Source of the DNA: Acidobacteriota bacterium
GTDB lineage: Bacteria > Acidobacteriota > Blastocatellia > Pyrinomonadales > Pyrinomonadaceae
Direction of reading: 5' to 3'
Assembly: GCA_025463135.1 (NCBI GenBank)
Contig: JAOAPY010000051.1
Location: 124,001-188,000, forward strand
Length of the DNA stretch: 64,000 nucleotides
Part shown: piece after piece, positions 2,656-9,800 of the stretch
Numbering within the stretch: the stretch's first letter is position 1
How the letters are laid out: each line of letters starts with the position of its first letter
Notes under the pieces: model-generated
What the model was told of the DNA's origin: nothing
The model's input: only the letters and a program-made list of their open reading frames with translations
Databases searched by the model: none
Made by a program: the position numbers and the translations under genes

Positions 2656-4173
2656 TCAAGCTCCACTCAAAGTCATATTGATCGTCTCCGCCAGTAGATC
2701 GAAGCTAAGCTCACCAAAGCCTATCAATGACGCCAACTCTTCAACTGAGTATTGTGAGGCAGTGCTCCACAAATCGATCAGTTCGTCGCCGGCTTTGCGT
2801 GACGCCCACCAGCGATGGCCATATCGCACCCGTAAGTATTCGCGTAACCCAAAGGAAAACGCCAGCGCGCGCAATTGACAGCCGGGTTGTAATCCATTCT
2901 CCAGGTTGAGCAGGAATGGTTCGGGCCGCTGCAAAAAAGAAGTAGCCCGTTCGTACAAGTCTACATAAGTTGCTTGCATTTGCTCTGGTGACAGAAGCTC
3001 ATCACTAAGACTCGGCTCAAACAGCACGCCCGCGCAAAGACTGCGCAGGTCCAGCGACATTTGCATTGCGACGTCTGTCGCGATCGCGCCCGCCCGAGTG
3101 CTTTCAATCTCCGGCAGGAATTCCAGGGACCATTTCGGATCAAGGGCAAGGTACTTGAATAAATATCCGAAAGCATCCGCTGTGGCAGAATCGGGTGAAG
3201 TAACAAACTCCGGATGGCGTTGGGCCAGCTCTTTAGAACACCACGCGTAGTGCTGCGCTTTTCCCAACTGTTGCTGACCGTTCAGGAATTCCATCGCTCC
3301 ATCGCTCAGCATAACCGCCAGCCTGACATCTTCGGGCGGTCGCACTGGAAAGCAAGCAGCCGCTGGTTTTCTTGAGGACCGTGGTTCAATGTCGATCTGC
3401 AGGTTCGACTGCCGGCCTATGTGGATTCCCATTCCCCTCATGGTTTCCGCGTACAGGCGCAGGAGATCCTTCGCCGGCAAATATCTATCGAGCCAGGACG
3501 CCGCGGTAAAGTAGGGCAGGTCCGCATAGTCCAGGTCGCGAAGCCTTCCCTCCGGGAGTTCGCGGGCAACCCGTTTCGTTAATGCGGATTTGTAGGCTGA
3601 CTCAGTTTGTTCCAGCAGCGAACGCGCGGCCCGCTGCACGTCATCCATTTTCGTGTCGCCGGCCTTAAACATCAGATCGTAGTAGGACGCGAATCCCAGC
3701 GCGCGGGCAGAATTATTGACCAATGCCAGGCGGTTGAGGCGCAGCTCATCACACTCTGCAATGGCATCAATCCAACGGGCGCCCAACTCAAGGCGTTGAG
3801 GCTTTGGTTCCTTTGCCAATCGGACTGCTACCTGTTCAAGTTTAAGATCTTCACCTCTCCATTGGATGGCTGTCGCTGCTTCACAACGCGCGAGTTCTTC
3901 AGTCACTTCGCGGACCCGCGCCTCGACAAACCAATTTTGCGCGGTCCCCAGCAGTCGCTGCAAAGCCCTGGTTTCCGTTCCAGAATCAGCTGGTCTCGAC
4001 TCCAGGAGTTTCTTTAACTCATTGATAGATTCCAGGGAAAACAAATCGCTGTAACGATCGAAGATCTCGTGGTCAGTGACTTGTGAAGTCAGGCCGACGT
4101 GCTGTCGATAGCGGGCGAGCTCGCGAGACGAATTATATGAGGCGAATTGGTCCCGATACTCGCTGATATTCAT
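2656..4173 (-). CDS. M3-like (oligopeptidase-fold) protein without zinc motif
   Basis: A 505-residue, mostly helical protein whose layout resembles the thimet oligopeptidase/carboxypeptidase M3 (or M2/M32) fold: long N-terminal helical part, SARALGFASYYDLMFKAGD near residue 160, and a C-terminal segment with the R-Y-G-x-R-W-W motif. Where M3 enzymes carry HExxH this protein has KAQHYAWCSKEL, so the catalytic zinc site appears lost and the protein may be a pseudo-peptidase. It leads the aroB operon with a 3-base gap to aroB. Assignment to M3 is by overall resemblance and should be treated as tentative; membership of a conserved uncharacterised acidobacterial family is the alternative. Confidence 0.7.
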   Translation of the reverse strand: MNISEYRDQFASYNSSRELARYRQHVGLTSQVTDHEIFDRYSDLFSLESINELKKLLESRPADSGTETRALQRLLGTAQNWFVEARVREVTEELARCEAATAIQWRGEDLKLEQVAVRLAKEPKPQRLELGARWIDAIAECDELRLNRLALVNNSARALGFASYYDLMFKAGDTKMDDVQRAARSLLEQTESAYKSALTKRVARELPEGRLRDLDYADLPYFTAASWLDRYLPAKDLLRLYAETMRGMGIHIGRQSNLQIDIEPRSSRKPAAACFPVRPPEDVRLAVMLSDGAMEFLNGQQQLGKAQHYAWCSKELAQRHPEFVTSPDSATADAFGYLFKYLALDPKWSLEFLPEIESTRAGAIATDVAMQMSLDLRSLCAGVLFEPSLSDELLSPEQMQATYVDLYERATSFLQRPEPFLLNLENGLQPGCQLRALAFSFGLREYLRVRYGHRWWASRKAGDELIDLWSTASQYSVEELASLIGFGELSFDLLAETINMTLSGA

Positions 4174-4324: not shown

Positions 4325-4369
4325 TAAAAAAGCGAACGGGCGCAAGCGTGGGAGTGCTCGCGCCCGTTC
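4325..4369 (-). terminator. Intrinsic terminator downstream of glmM
   Basis: A 10-base-pair perfect stem (GAACGGGCGC at 4334-4343 with GCGCCCGTTC at 4360-4369) is followed on the minus strand by GCTTTTTT. It faces transcripts coming from glmM, about 250 bases downstream of the glmM stop, and directly follows the structured RNA at 4370-4448. Confidence 0.85.
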
Positions 4370-4448
4370 ATATTCGTGGTCACTGTCCTCACCCCAGCAA
4401 CCACTTGAGACGGAGGATTCACCAACCGTCTCTCTTGCCCCGAAATAT
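4370..4448 (-). ncRNA. Putative structured RNA (three-way junction) in glmM 3' region
   Basis: Reading the minus strand, a closing helix (ATATT-t-CG at 4448-4441 with CGAATAT at 4376-4370) encloses two hairpins: GAGACGG/CCGTCTC (4432-4407) and GTGGT-tg-CTG/CAG-tg-ACCAC (4404-4376), the latter with a symmetric internal loop. The terminator hairpin abuts the junction. I see no plausible coding frame. It could be a 3'UTR-derived small RNA or a long-lived mRNA end; I could not match it to a known RNA class. Confidence 0.5.
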
Positions 4449-4622
4449 ACCTCGCAATGCTCGTGCCGTGCAAGAATAAAGTCGACCACGATTATTGGTC
4501 ATACGGTTTTGCAGAGCTTCATCATTACGAGCTAAAGGCGAGCTGAAAAATAACCGCGACCGCTCACCAAATGATGTAATTTTTATAGTCGGACCAATGT
4601 AGATATTTCATTGCCTGACTGC

Positions 4623-5987
4623 TCAAGTCGAACCAATCTCGTCTTTGATGGCCGCGGCTAGTCTGTTCGCGTAAGCCTCAATCTCATTTTGATTCTGACC
4701 TTCAATCATCACGCGCGCCAACGACTCCGTACCTGAGTAACGAAGCAATAAACGTCCCCGGTCGCCAAGCTCCGCTTCGATCTCGCGCGCCATAATTCGC
4801 ACTCTTTCCATTTCGTCGAAGGGCTTCTTCTCAGTCACTCGTATGTTTACAAGTATTTGAGGGTAACGATCAAAGCCTTCTGTCAGCTCGTGAAGGTTCT
4901 TATTTCCTTCATCCGCCATCGCCCGCAGCAGGCAGAGCGTTGTGATTAGGCCATCGCCGGCCAAACTTAAATCGGGAAAGATCAGATGGCCCGACTGCTC
5001 TCCCCCAAGAGTTGCTCCTGAGGTAAGTAATTCTTCCAGGACATACTTATCGCCGACGTCTTTGCGCACCATTTCTACGCCCTGCGAACGCAAGGCGATT
5101 TCCAGGCCAATATTGCTCATCACAGTCGCCACGACCATTCCGTGTTTGAGCAACCCCTGCGCGTTGAGGTGCTTTGCCAGCGCCCACATAGTCGCATCGC
5201 CATCGATGAAATTCCCTTTGGCGTCCACGAACAGCGCCCGGTCTGCATCGCCGTCAAAAGCGACGCCAAGATCCGCGCGTTCGGCCAGGACCCTTTGCTG
5301 TAATCCTTCGATATGGAGCGAGCCGCAATCTAAATTGATGTTGCGTCCGTCCGGCTGGTTGTTAATAGCGATCACGCTCGCACCCAGGCGCGTAAACAGT
5401 TCCGGCGCAATCGTCGACGCTGCACCGTTCGCGCAATCGATAACCATTGTCAGGTTGTTTAGTGACAGTCCCTGAGCAATTTCATCGACAAGAAAATCCA
5501 GATACCGCGCGCGCAGCTGATTTGCCTCGCTGCCTTCAGTTGCCGGAGGTTCTGATCTTACATCGGGCCGATCCTTTGCCCTGTTGATGTCAGCCTCGAT
5601 CATTCGCTCGATAGAATCTTCGAGCTTCTTTCCGGAGGGCGAAAAGATTTTCACGCCGTTGTCTTGATACGGATTGTGAGAGGCGCTGATGACAACGCCC
5701 GCATCCGCGGGCAACGTACGAGCCAGAAATGCTACCCCCGGAGTAGTGATCACGCCTGCGGATTTGCATTCGGCGCCCGCATCCCGGGCGCCCTCGATGA
5801 AGGCCTGCTCTATCCAGGCGCCCGATTCTCGAGTGTCTCGACCGATCACGATCAACGGAGCGCGATCAGCGCGTTGCTGGTGCAGATGCGCAGCCAATGA
5901 TGATCCGAGCACCCGCACCGTTGTCTCATCCAGGGGAAACTCACCCGCATGGCCGCGGATTCCATCTGTGCCGAATAGTTTTCCCAT
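4623..5987 (-). CDS. glmM: Phosphoglucosamine mutase
   Basis: Interconverts glucosamine-6-phosphate and glucosamine-1-phosphate on the route to UDP-GlcNAc for peptidoglycan and lipopolysaccharide. 454 residues, normal for the family. N-terminus MGKLFGTDGIRG, phospho-serine loop ISASHNP with the catalytic serine at about 103, Mg-binding loop DGDADRALF near 245, sugar-binding GGEQSGH, and phosphate-binding LLRYSGTESLARVM near the C-terminus. It is the third gene of cdaA-ybbR-glmM, 16 bases after ybbR. This order is conserved in many bacteria, and CdaA/CdaR are known to contact GlmM in Firmicutes. Confidence 0.97.
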   Translation of the reverse strand: MGKLFGTDGIRGHAGEFPLDETTVRVLGSSLAAHLHQQRADRAPLIVIGRDTRESGAWIEQAFIEGARDAGAECKSAGVITTPGVAFLARTLPADAGVVISASHNPYQDNGVKIFSPSGKKLEDSIERMIEADINRAKDRPDVRSEPPATEGSEANQLRARYLDFLVDEIAQGLSLNNLTMVIDCANGAASTIAPELFTRLGASVIAINNQPDGRNINLDCGSLHIEGLQQRVLAERADLGVAFDGDADRALFVDAKGNFIDGDATMWALAKHLNAQGLLKHGMVVATVMSNIGLEIALRSQGVEMVRKDVGDKYVLEELLTSGATLGGEQSGHLIFPDLSLAGDGLITTLCLLRAMADEGNKNLHELTEGFDRYPQILVNIRVTEKKPFDEMERVRIMAREIEAELGDRGRLLLRYSGTESLARVMIEGQNQNEIEAYANRLAAAIKDEIGST

Positions 5988-6003
5988 TGATAGAACGGAG
6001 GAC

Positions 6004-6993
6004 TTATTTACTTGCAGGTAGAAATTTTGAGGGCTTGATAGAAACTATTCTTACTTTCCCATGCAGGGCGGGCGGTAACTCCAGCGTGAATGAATTCCTG
6101 CTCTCCGGCGTAAACTCGCCGGCACCATCAGCCACCACCAGATGAATTTGATCAGAACGCAACTGGGTAAAAACCCAGGCCGGAGCCGACAAAATTAAGT
6201 TAGCCGCGGAAGGACGCAACTTCACGCCGGCAGGTGATTGCACGGGGACATCATCGAAAGTTTTCACAACGGCCCGCTCGCCAATTTCCACGTGCACCTG
6301 CACGAGTCCATCAGGAATATCCACCTTCTGATCTGGAACGTCGACGGCTACCTGATTCAAATCGAAGCTGCTCGTCTTGGCGTCCAGCAAAATCGATTCG
6401 GTGGCTGCCTGTTTAATGCCATTGACGATGCCGGCCGGCCCTCTCACTCTCACCTTGGCCGGATTAGCAACGGCAGAGTAGACCTCATAGCCTTCCGGCA
6501 GATTGCCTTCGAATTTCAGGGTGACTTCGACCTGACGCTCGACTATGGGTTCGAGGCGGACCGTAACGATGGCAGGCTGAAACCCAATCATGCTTACGCC
6601 TTCGGGCAGCTCAAGTTTCACGCGATCGCGGGAAAGTCTGATCACCCGATCACCGGTGGCATGATCGCCAACCACAACCGTGGCCAACAACTCCAGCGGA
6701 TTGATCTGCGCCAGTTCATCGTTACTGCCGGTCAAGGTGATGTCAACTCTACTGGGAGGGTCGTTGCTGATTGCCATGTCGTCGGCGTGAATAAAACCAA
6801 GCTGAACGCCGGTGATGCGCTTGGTCATGGGCTTTCTTTGACCTGTCACGGCAAACCAGAGCACCAGCGTGATACTCAGCGCCAGCAGTTTTGTCTTCAG
6901 GTCTTCGACAAAGATCTTACGCAGCCAGCGCTCAAGGATGCCCGGCGGTTGCGGCGGCTCGTACTGAAGATCGTCTGTATCCTGAATCGGCAT
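6004..6993 (-). CDS. YbbR-domain protein (CdaR-like)
   Basis: Membrane-anchored regulator candidate for the diadenylate cyclase next door. 329 residues: a cytoplasmic N-terminus, one transmembrane helix (about 33-52, LKTKLLALSITLVLWFAVTG), then extracytoplasmic YbbR-type beta repeats (for instance VEVTLKFEGNLPEGYEVYSAVANP and similar stretches). The conserved cdaA-ybbR-glmM context supports a CdaR-like role; whether it activates or inhibits c-di-AMP synthesis cannot be told from sequence. A roughly 100-base spacer separates it from cdaA. Confidence 0.9.
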   Translation of the reverse strand: MPIQDTDDLQYEPPQPPGILERWLRKIFVEDLKTKLLALSITLVLWFAVTGQRKPMTKRITGVQLGFIHADDMAISNDPPSRVDITLTGSNDELAQINPLELLATVVVGDHATGDRVIRLSRDRVKLELPEGVSMIGFQPAIVTVRLEPIVERQVEVTLKFEGNLPEGYEVYSAVANPAKVRVRGPAGIVNGIKQAATESILLDAKTSSFDLNQVAVDVPDQKVDIPDGLVQVHVEIGERAVVKTFDDVPVQSPAGVKLRPSAANLILSAPAWVFTQLRSDQIHLVVADGAGEFTPESRNSFTLELPPALHGKVRIVSIKPSKFLPASK

Positions 6994-7093
6994 AGTTGTG
7001 ATTTTCAGATTTCAGAATGAGGCGTGCAAATTTGAAAACTCAAGACTCCTGGAATCTCAGATCAATCCGCAGTCAGCGTTCACCAATCGAGGT

Positions 7094-7942
7094 CTACATG
7101 GAAGCAATTTCCTCGGTTTCTGTTTCCGCATCCGCCAGCTTGTCCCGCGCTTTCTTTGGCGCGACCTCCAACGCCTGAAAGATCGCGGCGCGCAGCTTCG
7201 TCGCGTCGAGGCCGCGCTTGATGTGCCCTTCCTGTACAAAGGAAATCAAGCCCGTCTCTTCCGAAACGACCACGGCCACCGCATCGGTATCTTCGGTGAC
7301 GCCAATGGCCGCGCGGTGACGCGTACCCAGATCTTTTGAGAGCCGCGGATTAAGCGTTAGCGGCAGGAAACACGAGGCGGCGGCAATGCGATGCCGCTGG
7401 ATCACTACGGCGCCGTCATGTAGGGGCGCCGCAGGATTAAAGATACTCACCAGCAAGTCATAGCTGAGTTCAGCATTGAGCTTCACGCCACCATCGCTCA
7501 AATTCTTCAAGCCCACGTTGCGTTCGATCACAATCAGGGCTCCAGTCTTCACTGAAGCAAGCGTGGTCGCCGCAAGTACGATTTCGTCATAAACACCCTC
7601 GCCGAATTGACCGTGATGCCGGCGCGCCAAGGGCAGACGAAAGCGGTTTCCAAAAGTTGTCAGCGCCTGGCGAATTTCTGATTGGAAAAGGACGATAATG
7701 GCAAAGCCGATATAGAGCAGGGCGCCACTCAGCACAAATTCGAGCGTGGCCAGATCTTCTTTGCGGGAAAACCAGCGGAGGAATGCTAAGGCGGCGATAC
7801 CGGCTGCCATGGGAGCAGCGCGTGTTCCCCTAACAAGCTTCAAAACTCCATACACCAGCAGGAAGACCAGAACGATGTCCGCGATGTTGCGCGGCTCAGC
7901 GAGTCTTCTGAGGAATTCGGTGTATGGTAGTGCCAGCAGCAT
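7094..7942 (-). CDS. cdaA: Membrane diadenylate cyclase CdaA
   Basis: Makes cyclic di-AMP from two ATP. 282 residues: hydrophobic N-terminal segments (about 20-88) anchor it in the membrane, followed by a cytoplasmic DAC domain (about 95-235) with the diagnostic PLHDGAVVI (DGA at 176-178) and GTRHRAAIG (RHR at 208-210) motifs. First gene of cdaA-ybbR-glmM, linking the second messenger to cell-wall precursor supply. The C-terminal 40 residues are acidic/charged and probably flexible. Confidence 0.96.
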   Translation of the reverse strand: MLLALPYTEFLRRLAEPRNIADIVLVFLLVYGVLKLVRGTRAAPMAAGIAALAFLRWFSRKEDLATLEFVLSGALLYIGFAIIVLFQSEIRQALTTFGNRFRLPLARRHHGQFGEGVYDEIVLAATTLASVKTGALIVIERNVGLKNLSDGGVKLNAELSYDLLVSIFNPAAPLHDGAVVIQRHRIAAASCFLPLTLNPRLSKDLGTRHRAAIGVTEDTDAVAVVVSEETGLISFVQEGHIKRGLDATKLRAAIFQALEVAPKKARDKLADAETETEEIASM

Positions 7943-8314: not shown

Positions 8315-8716
8315 TTATGCGGCAAGCGTCAATTCAAAGGGGTTAGCAATTGTCCGCATCCCAAATCGCTTGAGCAATTTTATCGCGTCATCCTCTTCGA
8401 TTTTTTCACGCTTGAGAATGGCTTCAACCTCAGGTTGTTCAAAGCTCGGTATTCGCATTGCAAAAAACTGCCACAAATCCCTGCTCTGATAGGTTGTGTC
8501 CAGATCTGGAAACTCAACTAAAGGGCGCAGGCTCTCGTGCTGCCTGAACTCCCTTGAGTATTCAAACTGCCAGACGCCGTCTTCGACGGTCAAAGTCCCT
8601 ACAAGCAAATCTGCATACTTGAGAAGGAATGTTGCGTGTACCCCTGGCGGCGCATACACGTGCGTGCGGATGCCGAGCCAGTCTCTTGCTACATCTATAT
8701 ATTTCTTAATTGGCAT
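8315..8716 (-). CDS. HipA N-terminal-domain-like small protein (HipS-like)
   Basis: 133 residues resembling the HipA N-terminal subdomain 1: LLVGTLTVEDGVWQFEYSRE, then LRPLVEFPD and DLWQFFAMRIPS, matching the family pattern (short beta pair, F-x-Y, L/F-P, FF..R/L-P). In single-chain HipA this domain is fused in front of the kinase; here it is a separate gene whose start overlaps the end of the kinase gene by 11 bases, with GGGGAGG about 9 bases upstream. By analogy with HipS of HipBST it may neutralise the kinase. In HipBST the order is hipB-hipS-hipT; here the kinase comes first and no HipB-like HTH gene is visible. Confidence 0.7.
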   Translation of the reverse strand: MPIKKYIDVARDWLGIRTHVYAPPGVHATFLLKYADLLVGTLTVEDGVWQFEYSREFRQHESLRPLVEFPDLDTTYQSRDLWQFFAMRIPSFEQPEVEAILKREKIEEDDAIKLLKRFGMRTIANPFELTLAA

Positions 8717-9761
8717 CTTTCATATCCTCCCCTTCCTTGAAATTTTTAATGGCCGAGCATAACAATTGCTGGCGCAACCGCAGACATCTCTTAATAAGTT
8801 CAAGGCGATTGGCACTCATCAACAGCCTAAATTCCTTATCGACAATTAAGATGCTCTTCTCAAGTGCGTCGTTTCTTAGGAATTTTTCAATATTTTGGCG
8901 GTATCCCTCGAAACCCTTCCAGATTAAGCCTATTAAACGAAAAAAATCAACTCTTGGTTCGCCATCCCATCCGAGAGGCGGATTGCATTTCCCGATATAC
9001 CCCTCAAGTAATGGTCGTTTATCGCGCAAAACTCTACCAACATATTCTTCGCTACTATTCCAAAACAAGGCGCGTGCCGTGTCGTAGACAGGCGAAAAAC
9101 GCGGTGAACGGTCTTTCCTCATCGGCACAATAACGCCCCAGTTGTACGGATGACGGTCATTATGTCCGATTAAGGCATCAAACGCCAACATCTCGACAAA
9201 TCCGCGTACAATCGGTGTTTCATGGTCAGGAAAAGCATTACGAATAGCCTCGCAAGTCATTTGAAAACTGAAATACTCGCGCTCGATCTTCTTTTCTGCC
9301 AGTTCCAGATATTCTTCCTTTCCTAAGCACCGCTCGAAAATCTCCGCACCGTGTGTTAATTGCTCTGAATGTCTACGCAAAAAATACTTACTCATAAACC
9401 GCACCTGCCCATCAATCAGCCGTAGCTTAGAATCCGCAATTCTCAAGCGGTAGGTTTGTCCTATCCTCGTAATCAATTGTTCTGTTATGGATTCATTTGG
9501 ATAAAACTTCGAGCCAACCTTAGCAATATAGCTTTCTCTTCGCTGTCTTCGGCTGCGATGTCCATACCGATATTCGTGGTCTGTTGTAAAATCTTTTGGG
9601 GCGTCTCCCATCACAGAAAGGAAAGACACTTTTTCGAGCTCACACCTTCGTAGGGCCGGAACTACTTCCGGCCAGTCAATCTGATAGTCAGCATAGACTT
9701 TTATTGCCTTTTCGGAATTCTCTTTTATTCTGAGTGACGAGATTCGGAGATTTCGGCGCAT
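8706..9761 (-). CDS. HipA-like serine/threonine kinase lacking the N-terminal domain (HipT-like)
   Basis: 351 residues with the HipA kinase core: ATP-binding lysine in YIAKVGSK (about 81), catalytic loop LAFDALIGHNDRHPYNWGV (HNDRH 200-204), and metal-binding aspartate in FSPVYDTA (227). Such kinases phosphorylate tRNA synthetases or other targets and arrest growth; the target here is unknown. I chose the ATG at 9761 over a TTG at 9800 because the TTG lies inside a good -35 box and the promoter's -10 ends 10 bases before the ATG, implying a nearly leaderless transcript. The split arrangement and the following HipS-like gene suggest a toxin-antitoxin pair. Confidence 0.8.
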   Translation of the reverse strand: MRRNLRISSLRIKENSEKAIKVYADYQIDWPEVVPALRRCELEKVSFLSVMGDAPKDFTTDHEYRYGHRSRRQRRESYIAKVGSKFYPNESITEQLITRIGQTYRLRIADSKLRLIDGQVRFMSKYFLRRHSEQLTHGAEIFERCLGKEEYLELAEKKIEREYFSFQMTCEAIRNAFPDHETPIVRGFVEMLAFDALIGHNDRHPYNWGVIVPMRKDRSPRFSPVYDTARALFWNSSEEYVGRVLRDKRPLLEGYIGKCNPPLGWDGEPRVDFFRLIGLIWKGFEGYRQNIEKFLRNDALEKSILIVDKEFRLLMSANRLELIKRCLRLRQQLLCSAIKNFKEGEDMKDAN

Positions 9762-9771
9762 TGGCCAAGTT

Positions 9772-9800
9772 AGTATAGATGAATGTCGGTGGGGTTTCAA
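9772..9800 (-). promoter_or_regulatory. Sigma-70 promoter of the hip-like pair
   Basis: TTGAAA (9800-9795), 17-base spacer, TATACT (9777-9772). Transcription would begin about 3-5 bases before the ATG at 9761, so the mRNA would be essentially leaderless. Confidence 0.7.

Follow-up and report, generated by a model that had tools for sequence, protein, structure and literature searches.

The Qrr RNAs of Vibrio are multi-copy, sigma-54-dependent RNAs of about 110 nt, with three to four hairpins and a terminator. Decoy RNAs of the CsrB/RsmZ type repeat a purine-rich motif in their hairpin loops. The enterobacterial GlmY and GlmZ have overlapping sigma-70 and sigma-54 promoters with QseF/GlrR as activator (PMC4098024). 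Structured non-coding RNAs from Acidobacteria include the Acido-1 and Acido-Lenti-1 motifs (RF01686 and RF01687; PMC2864571). Here, we analysed a locus behind glmM in a 64-kb stretch of an Acidobacteriota genome, hereafter the window. Positions 4442 to 4326 of the minus strand likely encode an independent small RNA (sRNA) of about 117 nt, which would be controlled by sigma-54 and an activator and would act in trans through the loop of its second hairpin (H2). The structure is conserved, a sigma-54 -24/-12 element is located at a fixed spacing, a dyad lies further upstream, and paralogous copies exist.

Similar to Qrr, several paralogous sRNAs with -24/-12 promoters occur within one Blastocatellia genome, with four sigma-54 copies in bin_180 (L166, L183, L189, L224) and three in RBC074 (L204, L205, L216). 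The Qrr RNAs belong to a different lineage though and share no sequence or Rfam match with the Blastocatellia RNA, of which some copies differ in the order of their hairpins and carry sigma-70-like promoters. The likeness to GlmY and GlmZ consists of a similar kind of promoter, the presence of several hairpins, and RapZ being encoded in the window's genome. In contrast to GlmY and GlmZ, the Blastocatellia RNA has neither an Rfam match nor detected glmS complementarity, is linked to glmM or aroB, and has permuted paralogs and a different upstream dyad. A purine-rich loop motif common to several Blastocatellia RNAs is reminiscent of CsrB/RsmZ, yet each RNA carries one loop motif rather than many and CsrA is missing from the genome. 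The whole window is without a match above the gathering score in Rfam 15. Weaker Rfam 15 matches of the RNA and its relatives were all unrelated and sub-threshold, with no bacterial sRNA family spanning the whole RNA, and the RF01686 and RF01687 models did not match the RNA even at E-values up to 10. By the tests made, the RNA belongs to neither the GlmY/GlmZ nor the Qrr family. A literature search with subscription papers largely outside its coverage found no earlier description of the Blastocatellia RNA.

Hairpins, covariation and the closing helix

The RNA type of the window (class I) consists of three successive hairpins, the last one doubling as terminator. Hairpin H1 (4407-4432, minus strand, as all features below) has a GAGACGG stem, an internal loop and an inner GG-UGAAU-CC, with two-sided changes at 7/7 pairs of its helices 1 and 2. 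Hairpin H2 (4376-4404) presents the loop GGGUGAGGA on a 10-bp stem with two-sided changes at eight of the ten pairs, and is the shared, nearly invariant module. Hairpin H3 (4333-4370) combines the terminator stem with the C-rich loop ACUCCCAC, and all 12 pairs show two-sided changes. It is followed by a run of six Ts (4326-4331), which marks an intrinsic terminator. The region 4325-4448 folds at -60.9 kcal/mol (z = -5.7), and none of 200 shuffles folded equally well. The covariance model R1 matches the RNA at 4440-4325 with 116.6 bits.

Covariation among 78 distinct relatives strongly favors the hairpins. Standard pairs occupy 97.8% of the cells, two-sided changes are found at 27 of the 29 stem pairs, and 0/500 shuffles reached any of the measures, in an alignment fitted to a covariance model that itself favors the structure. 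Sliding the partner columns by 1-3 positions abolished the covariation signal among these relatives. The identical three hairpins, with 15 compensatory pairs, emerged when 25 sequences were aligned independently with MAFFT. The H2 loop is identical in 77/81 loops, a value partly inflated by seeding the first searches on that loop, although the loop varies little among model-based matches too. Two further interpretations were rejected. Loop-loop kissing between H2 and H3 was not better than with shuffled loops (mean z +0.26), and a 15-codon frame in the window RNA was, by inspection, broken in L012 and missing in other copies.

A closing helix, which would turn the hairpins into a three-way junction, is not conserved in this form. 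The predicted helix GGGGC/GCUUU is paired in just 51% of cells, and 10/78 relatives form each of the four pairs tested. An alternative helix, AUAUU/GAAUAU, would recruit the TATATT box of the promoter, which precedes the likely start, and just 24/73 copies could form a matching helix. A closing helix with junction is predicted for the shorter class II paralogs only. The three-way junction of the preliminary description is thus abandoned for the window copy. The remaining layout, with two hairpins (one bearing an internal loop) and a terminator on the glmM strand, stands and is placed at 175-298 nt beyond the glmM stop (4623). Similarly, the originally proposed span of 4325-4448 contains the RNA at about 4442-4326, but part of the span is promoter (TATATT box). 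The preliminary description had also proposed a stable small RNA and made it depend on compensatory changes in relatives. Such changes are present at 27/29 pairs, and the small RNA is further supported by the conserved promoter and terminator as well as by stand-alone paralogs.

Predicted promoters and the upstream dyad

A sigma-54 -24/-12 element, CGGCAC-GAGCA-TTGC, is located at 4454-4468 and is the only match to the motif in the window, with 1.2 expected. The -24 part starts with CGGCAC, the ideal being TGGCAC. After merging identical stretches, the motif [CT]GGC[AC][CT]-N5-TTGC is found upstream of 64/133 distinct copies, compared to at most 1 in 200 mononucleotide shuffling rounds; genome collections overlap, hence these and the following copy counts are not fully independent. 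The distance from the motif to a conserved GGGGCAA is 12 nt in 61/63 cases, so that a sigma-54 transcript would be expected to begin at the base directly preceding GGGG. The probable ends of the RNA lie near 4442 for the 5' end, as predicted from the spacing to the -12 element, and near 4326 for the 3' end, as predicted from the T run.

The sigma-54 element overlaps a sigma-70-like promoter at 4444-4473, consisting of TTGCAC (4473-4468, a weak -35), a spacer of 18 nt and TATATT (4449-4444). A TATANT box was found in 72/133 copies, and 35/133 carry both the sigma-54 motif and the box. The overlap with a TATATT-containing promoter is the arrangement of the Pyrinomonadaceae. Families f3, f7 and f9 have a near-perfect sigma-54 element with no TATA-like box seen, and in some genera and many relatives the sigma-70-like promoter alone remains. 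We rejected RpoN loss as the cause of sigma-54 element loss since RpoN is nearly universal in the class (150/162 genomes), and it is encoded in the window's genome.

An enhancer-like dyad, TATAAAAATTACA (consensus TGTAA-N3-TTACA), lies at 4575-4587, 119 bp upstream of the -24 element, and is a putative site of a sigma-54 activator. With at most one mismatch, the consensus occurs in 35/69 sigma-54 copies against 0.4 in shuffles, identical stretches being merged here too. The dyads are mostly located 105-145 bp upstream, with clusters near 110, 120, 131 and 142 bp that are spaced by about one helical turn. Upstream distances of this kind are usual for the binding sites of sigma-54 activators. 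The window dyad has one mismatch and is the sole such site in the 64 kb, with 0.58 expected, so alone it is not significant. The locus hence shows a -24/-12 element at fixed distance, an upstream dyad and RpoN in the genome, as in a sigma-54 transcription unit, with the window copy one base off in each element. Matches to a TGTC-N10-GACA (GlrR-type) dyad were absent upstream, as were TGCAC-type and other classical dyads. No activator gene was found adjoining the RNA, and the named loci carry no activator signature. We suggest that an activator of the response-regulator type would bind the dyad and switch on sigma-54 transcription. The overlapping sigma-70 promoter could provide basal expression in Pyrinomonadaceae.

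Neighboring genes and distribution in Blastocatellia

The RNA follows glmM (4623-5987) on the same strand, and glmM is the upstream same-strand neighbor in 57/72 copies tested. The first-found copies are mostly located just behind glmM, with a median of 236 nt from the glmM end to the loop. The gene is part of a dacA-ybbR-glmM cluster (4623-7942, minus strand) encoding a c-di-AMP synthase, a YbbR protein and a phosphoglucosamine mutase. Further along the same strand, a split HipA-like pair (8315-9800) consists of an ORF for the HipA N-terminal domain and an ORF for the C-terminal kinase-like domain. Downstream of the RNA, a 505-aa ORF (2656-4173) matches neither a Pfam family above cut-off nor any PDB entry. 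A first impression of this ORF as M3-like was unsupported by these searches. The ORF accompanies the RNA across the class, also outside the family. In other families of the class, the conserved neighbors are the 505-aa ORF and aroB, with glmM not adjoining. The adjacency of glmM is probably inherited synteny.

The RNA could in principle be nothing else than the glmM terminator with extra hairpins, given the shared strand, the short median distance and the strong H3. The conserved promoter intervening between glmM and the RNA, the paralogs far from glmM and the conservation of loops and non-terminator hairpins make such a reading extremely unlikely. A second possibility is a functional analogue of GlmY/GlmZ controlling glmS and the amino-sugar supply, for which the adjacency to glmM within the family and the presence of RapZ could be invoked. 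We consider this very unlikely, as glmM is not next to the RNA in other families, no Rfam match to GlmY/GlmZ exists, and the dyad differs from TGTC-N10-GACA, the arrangement of GlrR sites. Furthermore, in 17 genomes the complementarity of the glmS leaders to the RNA loops does not exceed that of shuffles (mean z -0.14 for H2 and 0.09 for H3), and targeting of glmS was rejected on these grounds. The preliminary description had linked the RNA to control of the UDP-GlcNAc pathway, a link that is not supported, glmM proximity being synteny within one family and the glmS leaders lacking excess complementarity. Its suggestion that a 3' end here carries a ligand-binding element is likewise unsupported given the RNA's own promoter and the copies in other families without glmM alongside.

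The main locus has a same-strand gene close downstream, either aroB, starting about 100-340 nt past the loop, or the 505-aa gene, starting about 125-570 nt past it. Together with the strong H3 terminator of the window, this would fit a cis-acting 5' leader or attenuator of aroB or the 505-aa ORF, in which a ligand or protein switches the terminator. The downstream gene varies among relatives though, several relatives (L015-L018) have a second terminator ahead of aroB, and no alternative antiterminator was found. A convergent gene follows the class II paralogs L002 and L003 as well as the class I paralogs L293, L294, L299 and L301, the ORFs near some paralogs, including the latter four, being unannotated and called by a simple longest-frame rule. 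We therefore regard a leader function as distinctly unlikely. In family f7, the upstream neighbor is divergent, which precludes an origin of the RNA by 3'-end processing in that family. Stand-alone paralogs with a convergent downstream gene and the divergent upstream gene in f7 thus favor action in trans over a role as leader or an origin from a processed transcript end.

The named genomes place the hosts in the Acidobacteriota, class Blastocatellia, and mostly in the Pyrinomonadaceae. The 16-mer GCTGGGGTGAGGACAG was found exactly in 71/119 genomes of the family covering 27/29 genera, with the reversed control matching none of the listed genomes. The covariance model R1 recovered the RNA in 78/119 family genomes and all 29 genera, and three further families of the class contain weaker but clear members. 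Genomes of genus g22 in the same family (about 40 species; G044-G084) encode RpoN and Hfq, but the RNA is not detected in most of them, which indicates that the RNA is not essential; the large-scale model searches were strictly filtered, and absence as in g22 may partly reflect divergence. The cultured Pyrinomonas methylaliphatogenes K22 carries a copy (L206, 556-437 on the minus strand).

Paralogous copies and possible modes of action

The number of copies per genome reaches about 10. When the intergenic region was searched against the window's own genome, the H2 hairpin was recovered at two other places, both compact units in which a TTGAC/TAGAAT promoter is followed by two hairpins, the first of H2 type, and a terminator. 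Eight of the 13 occurrences of the H2-loop 10-mer in this genome sit in such hairpins, amid differing companion hairpins. The order H1-H2-H3 is found in the window copy, a variant at C21 bears an extra hairpin, and the order H2-H1'-terminator is found at C28 and C51. Additional arrangements were judged by eye and are leads rather than an established superfamily. The own-genome locus L280 (C51:249900-250300, minus strand) is ordered H1'-H3-H2, with the GGGUGAGGA hairpin and eight Ts forming the terminator. A separate sRNA-like unit conserved in several genera combines a GGTGAACG-type hairpin with C-rich loop, a GGGUGAGGA hairpin and a terminator (L270 +194, L271 +194, L272 +194, L276 +194, and L285 -209 at C25:54132 in the own genome). 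At L281 and L282 (own genome, C51:3128 and C28:116315), the GGGUGAGGA loop lies in similar longer conserved stretches, TCTGGCACGGCCTCC...CCAGTGCCGACGGGCCG. A Blastocatellia sRNA superfamily defined by the GGGUGAGGA loop is possible if somewhat doubtful. In the own genome, such a superfamily would comprise eight or more RNA-like loci with unrelated stems, companion hairpins added, lost or reordered, control by sigma-54 with an activator or by sigma-70, and one common reading partner.

The sRNA would probably act in trans via its H2 loop GGGUGAGGA, which is exposed and invariant and is also displayed by sister RNAs of the genome. Base-pairing with mRNAs is a candidate mechanism, with Hfq encoded in 153/162 genomes of the class. 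GGUGAGGA and the H3 loop are candidate stretches for pairing with target sites. The complement of the H2-loop 10-mer is not enriched in the own genome (13 occurrences vs 16 for the reversed control), hence extended pairing through the H2 loop is unsupported. Alternatively, the shared H2 loop could bind an RNA-binding protein, and the copies could jointly sequester it as CsrB does with CsrA. In favor of a decoy, the H2 loop is much more conserved than the stems, eight or more RNA-like loci within one genome have the loop in common but differ in the other hairpins, and the H2 stem retains its G-U pair in 76/78 rows. Titration of CsrA itself was rejected since CsrA is missing from the own genome and from 148/162 class genomes (present in 14/162). 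GGA motifs number just one or two per RNA, with one in the H2 loop and sometimes one in H1, rather than the multiple motifs of CsrB/RsmZ, and there is no candidate protein. We hence consider a decoy unlikely, and of the two mechanisms, base-pairing with mRNAs is slightly favored over protein titration.

Regulatory RNAs of the Acidobacteriota, abundant bacteria of soils, are almost undescribed. The arrangement resembles the sigma-54-driven GlmY/GlmZ and Qrr sRNAs but occurs in a distant phylum. The shared and reordered hairpin modules provide a way to see the working part of an sRNA. Strong covariation, a cultured host and predictions of both a testable promoter and an activator site allow the regulator, targets and partner of the family to be searched for directly.
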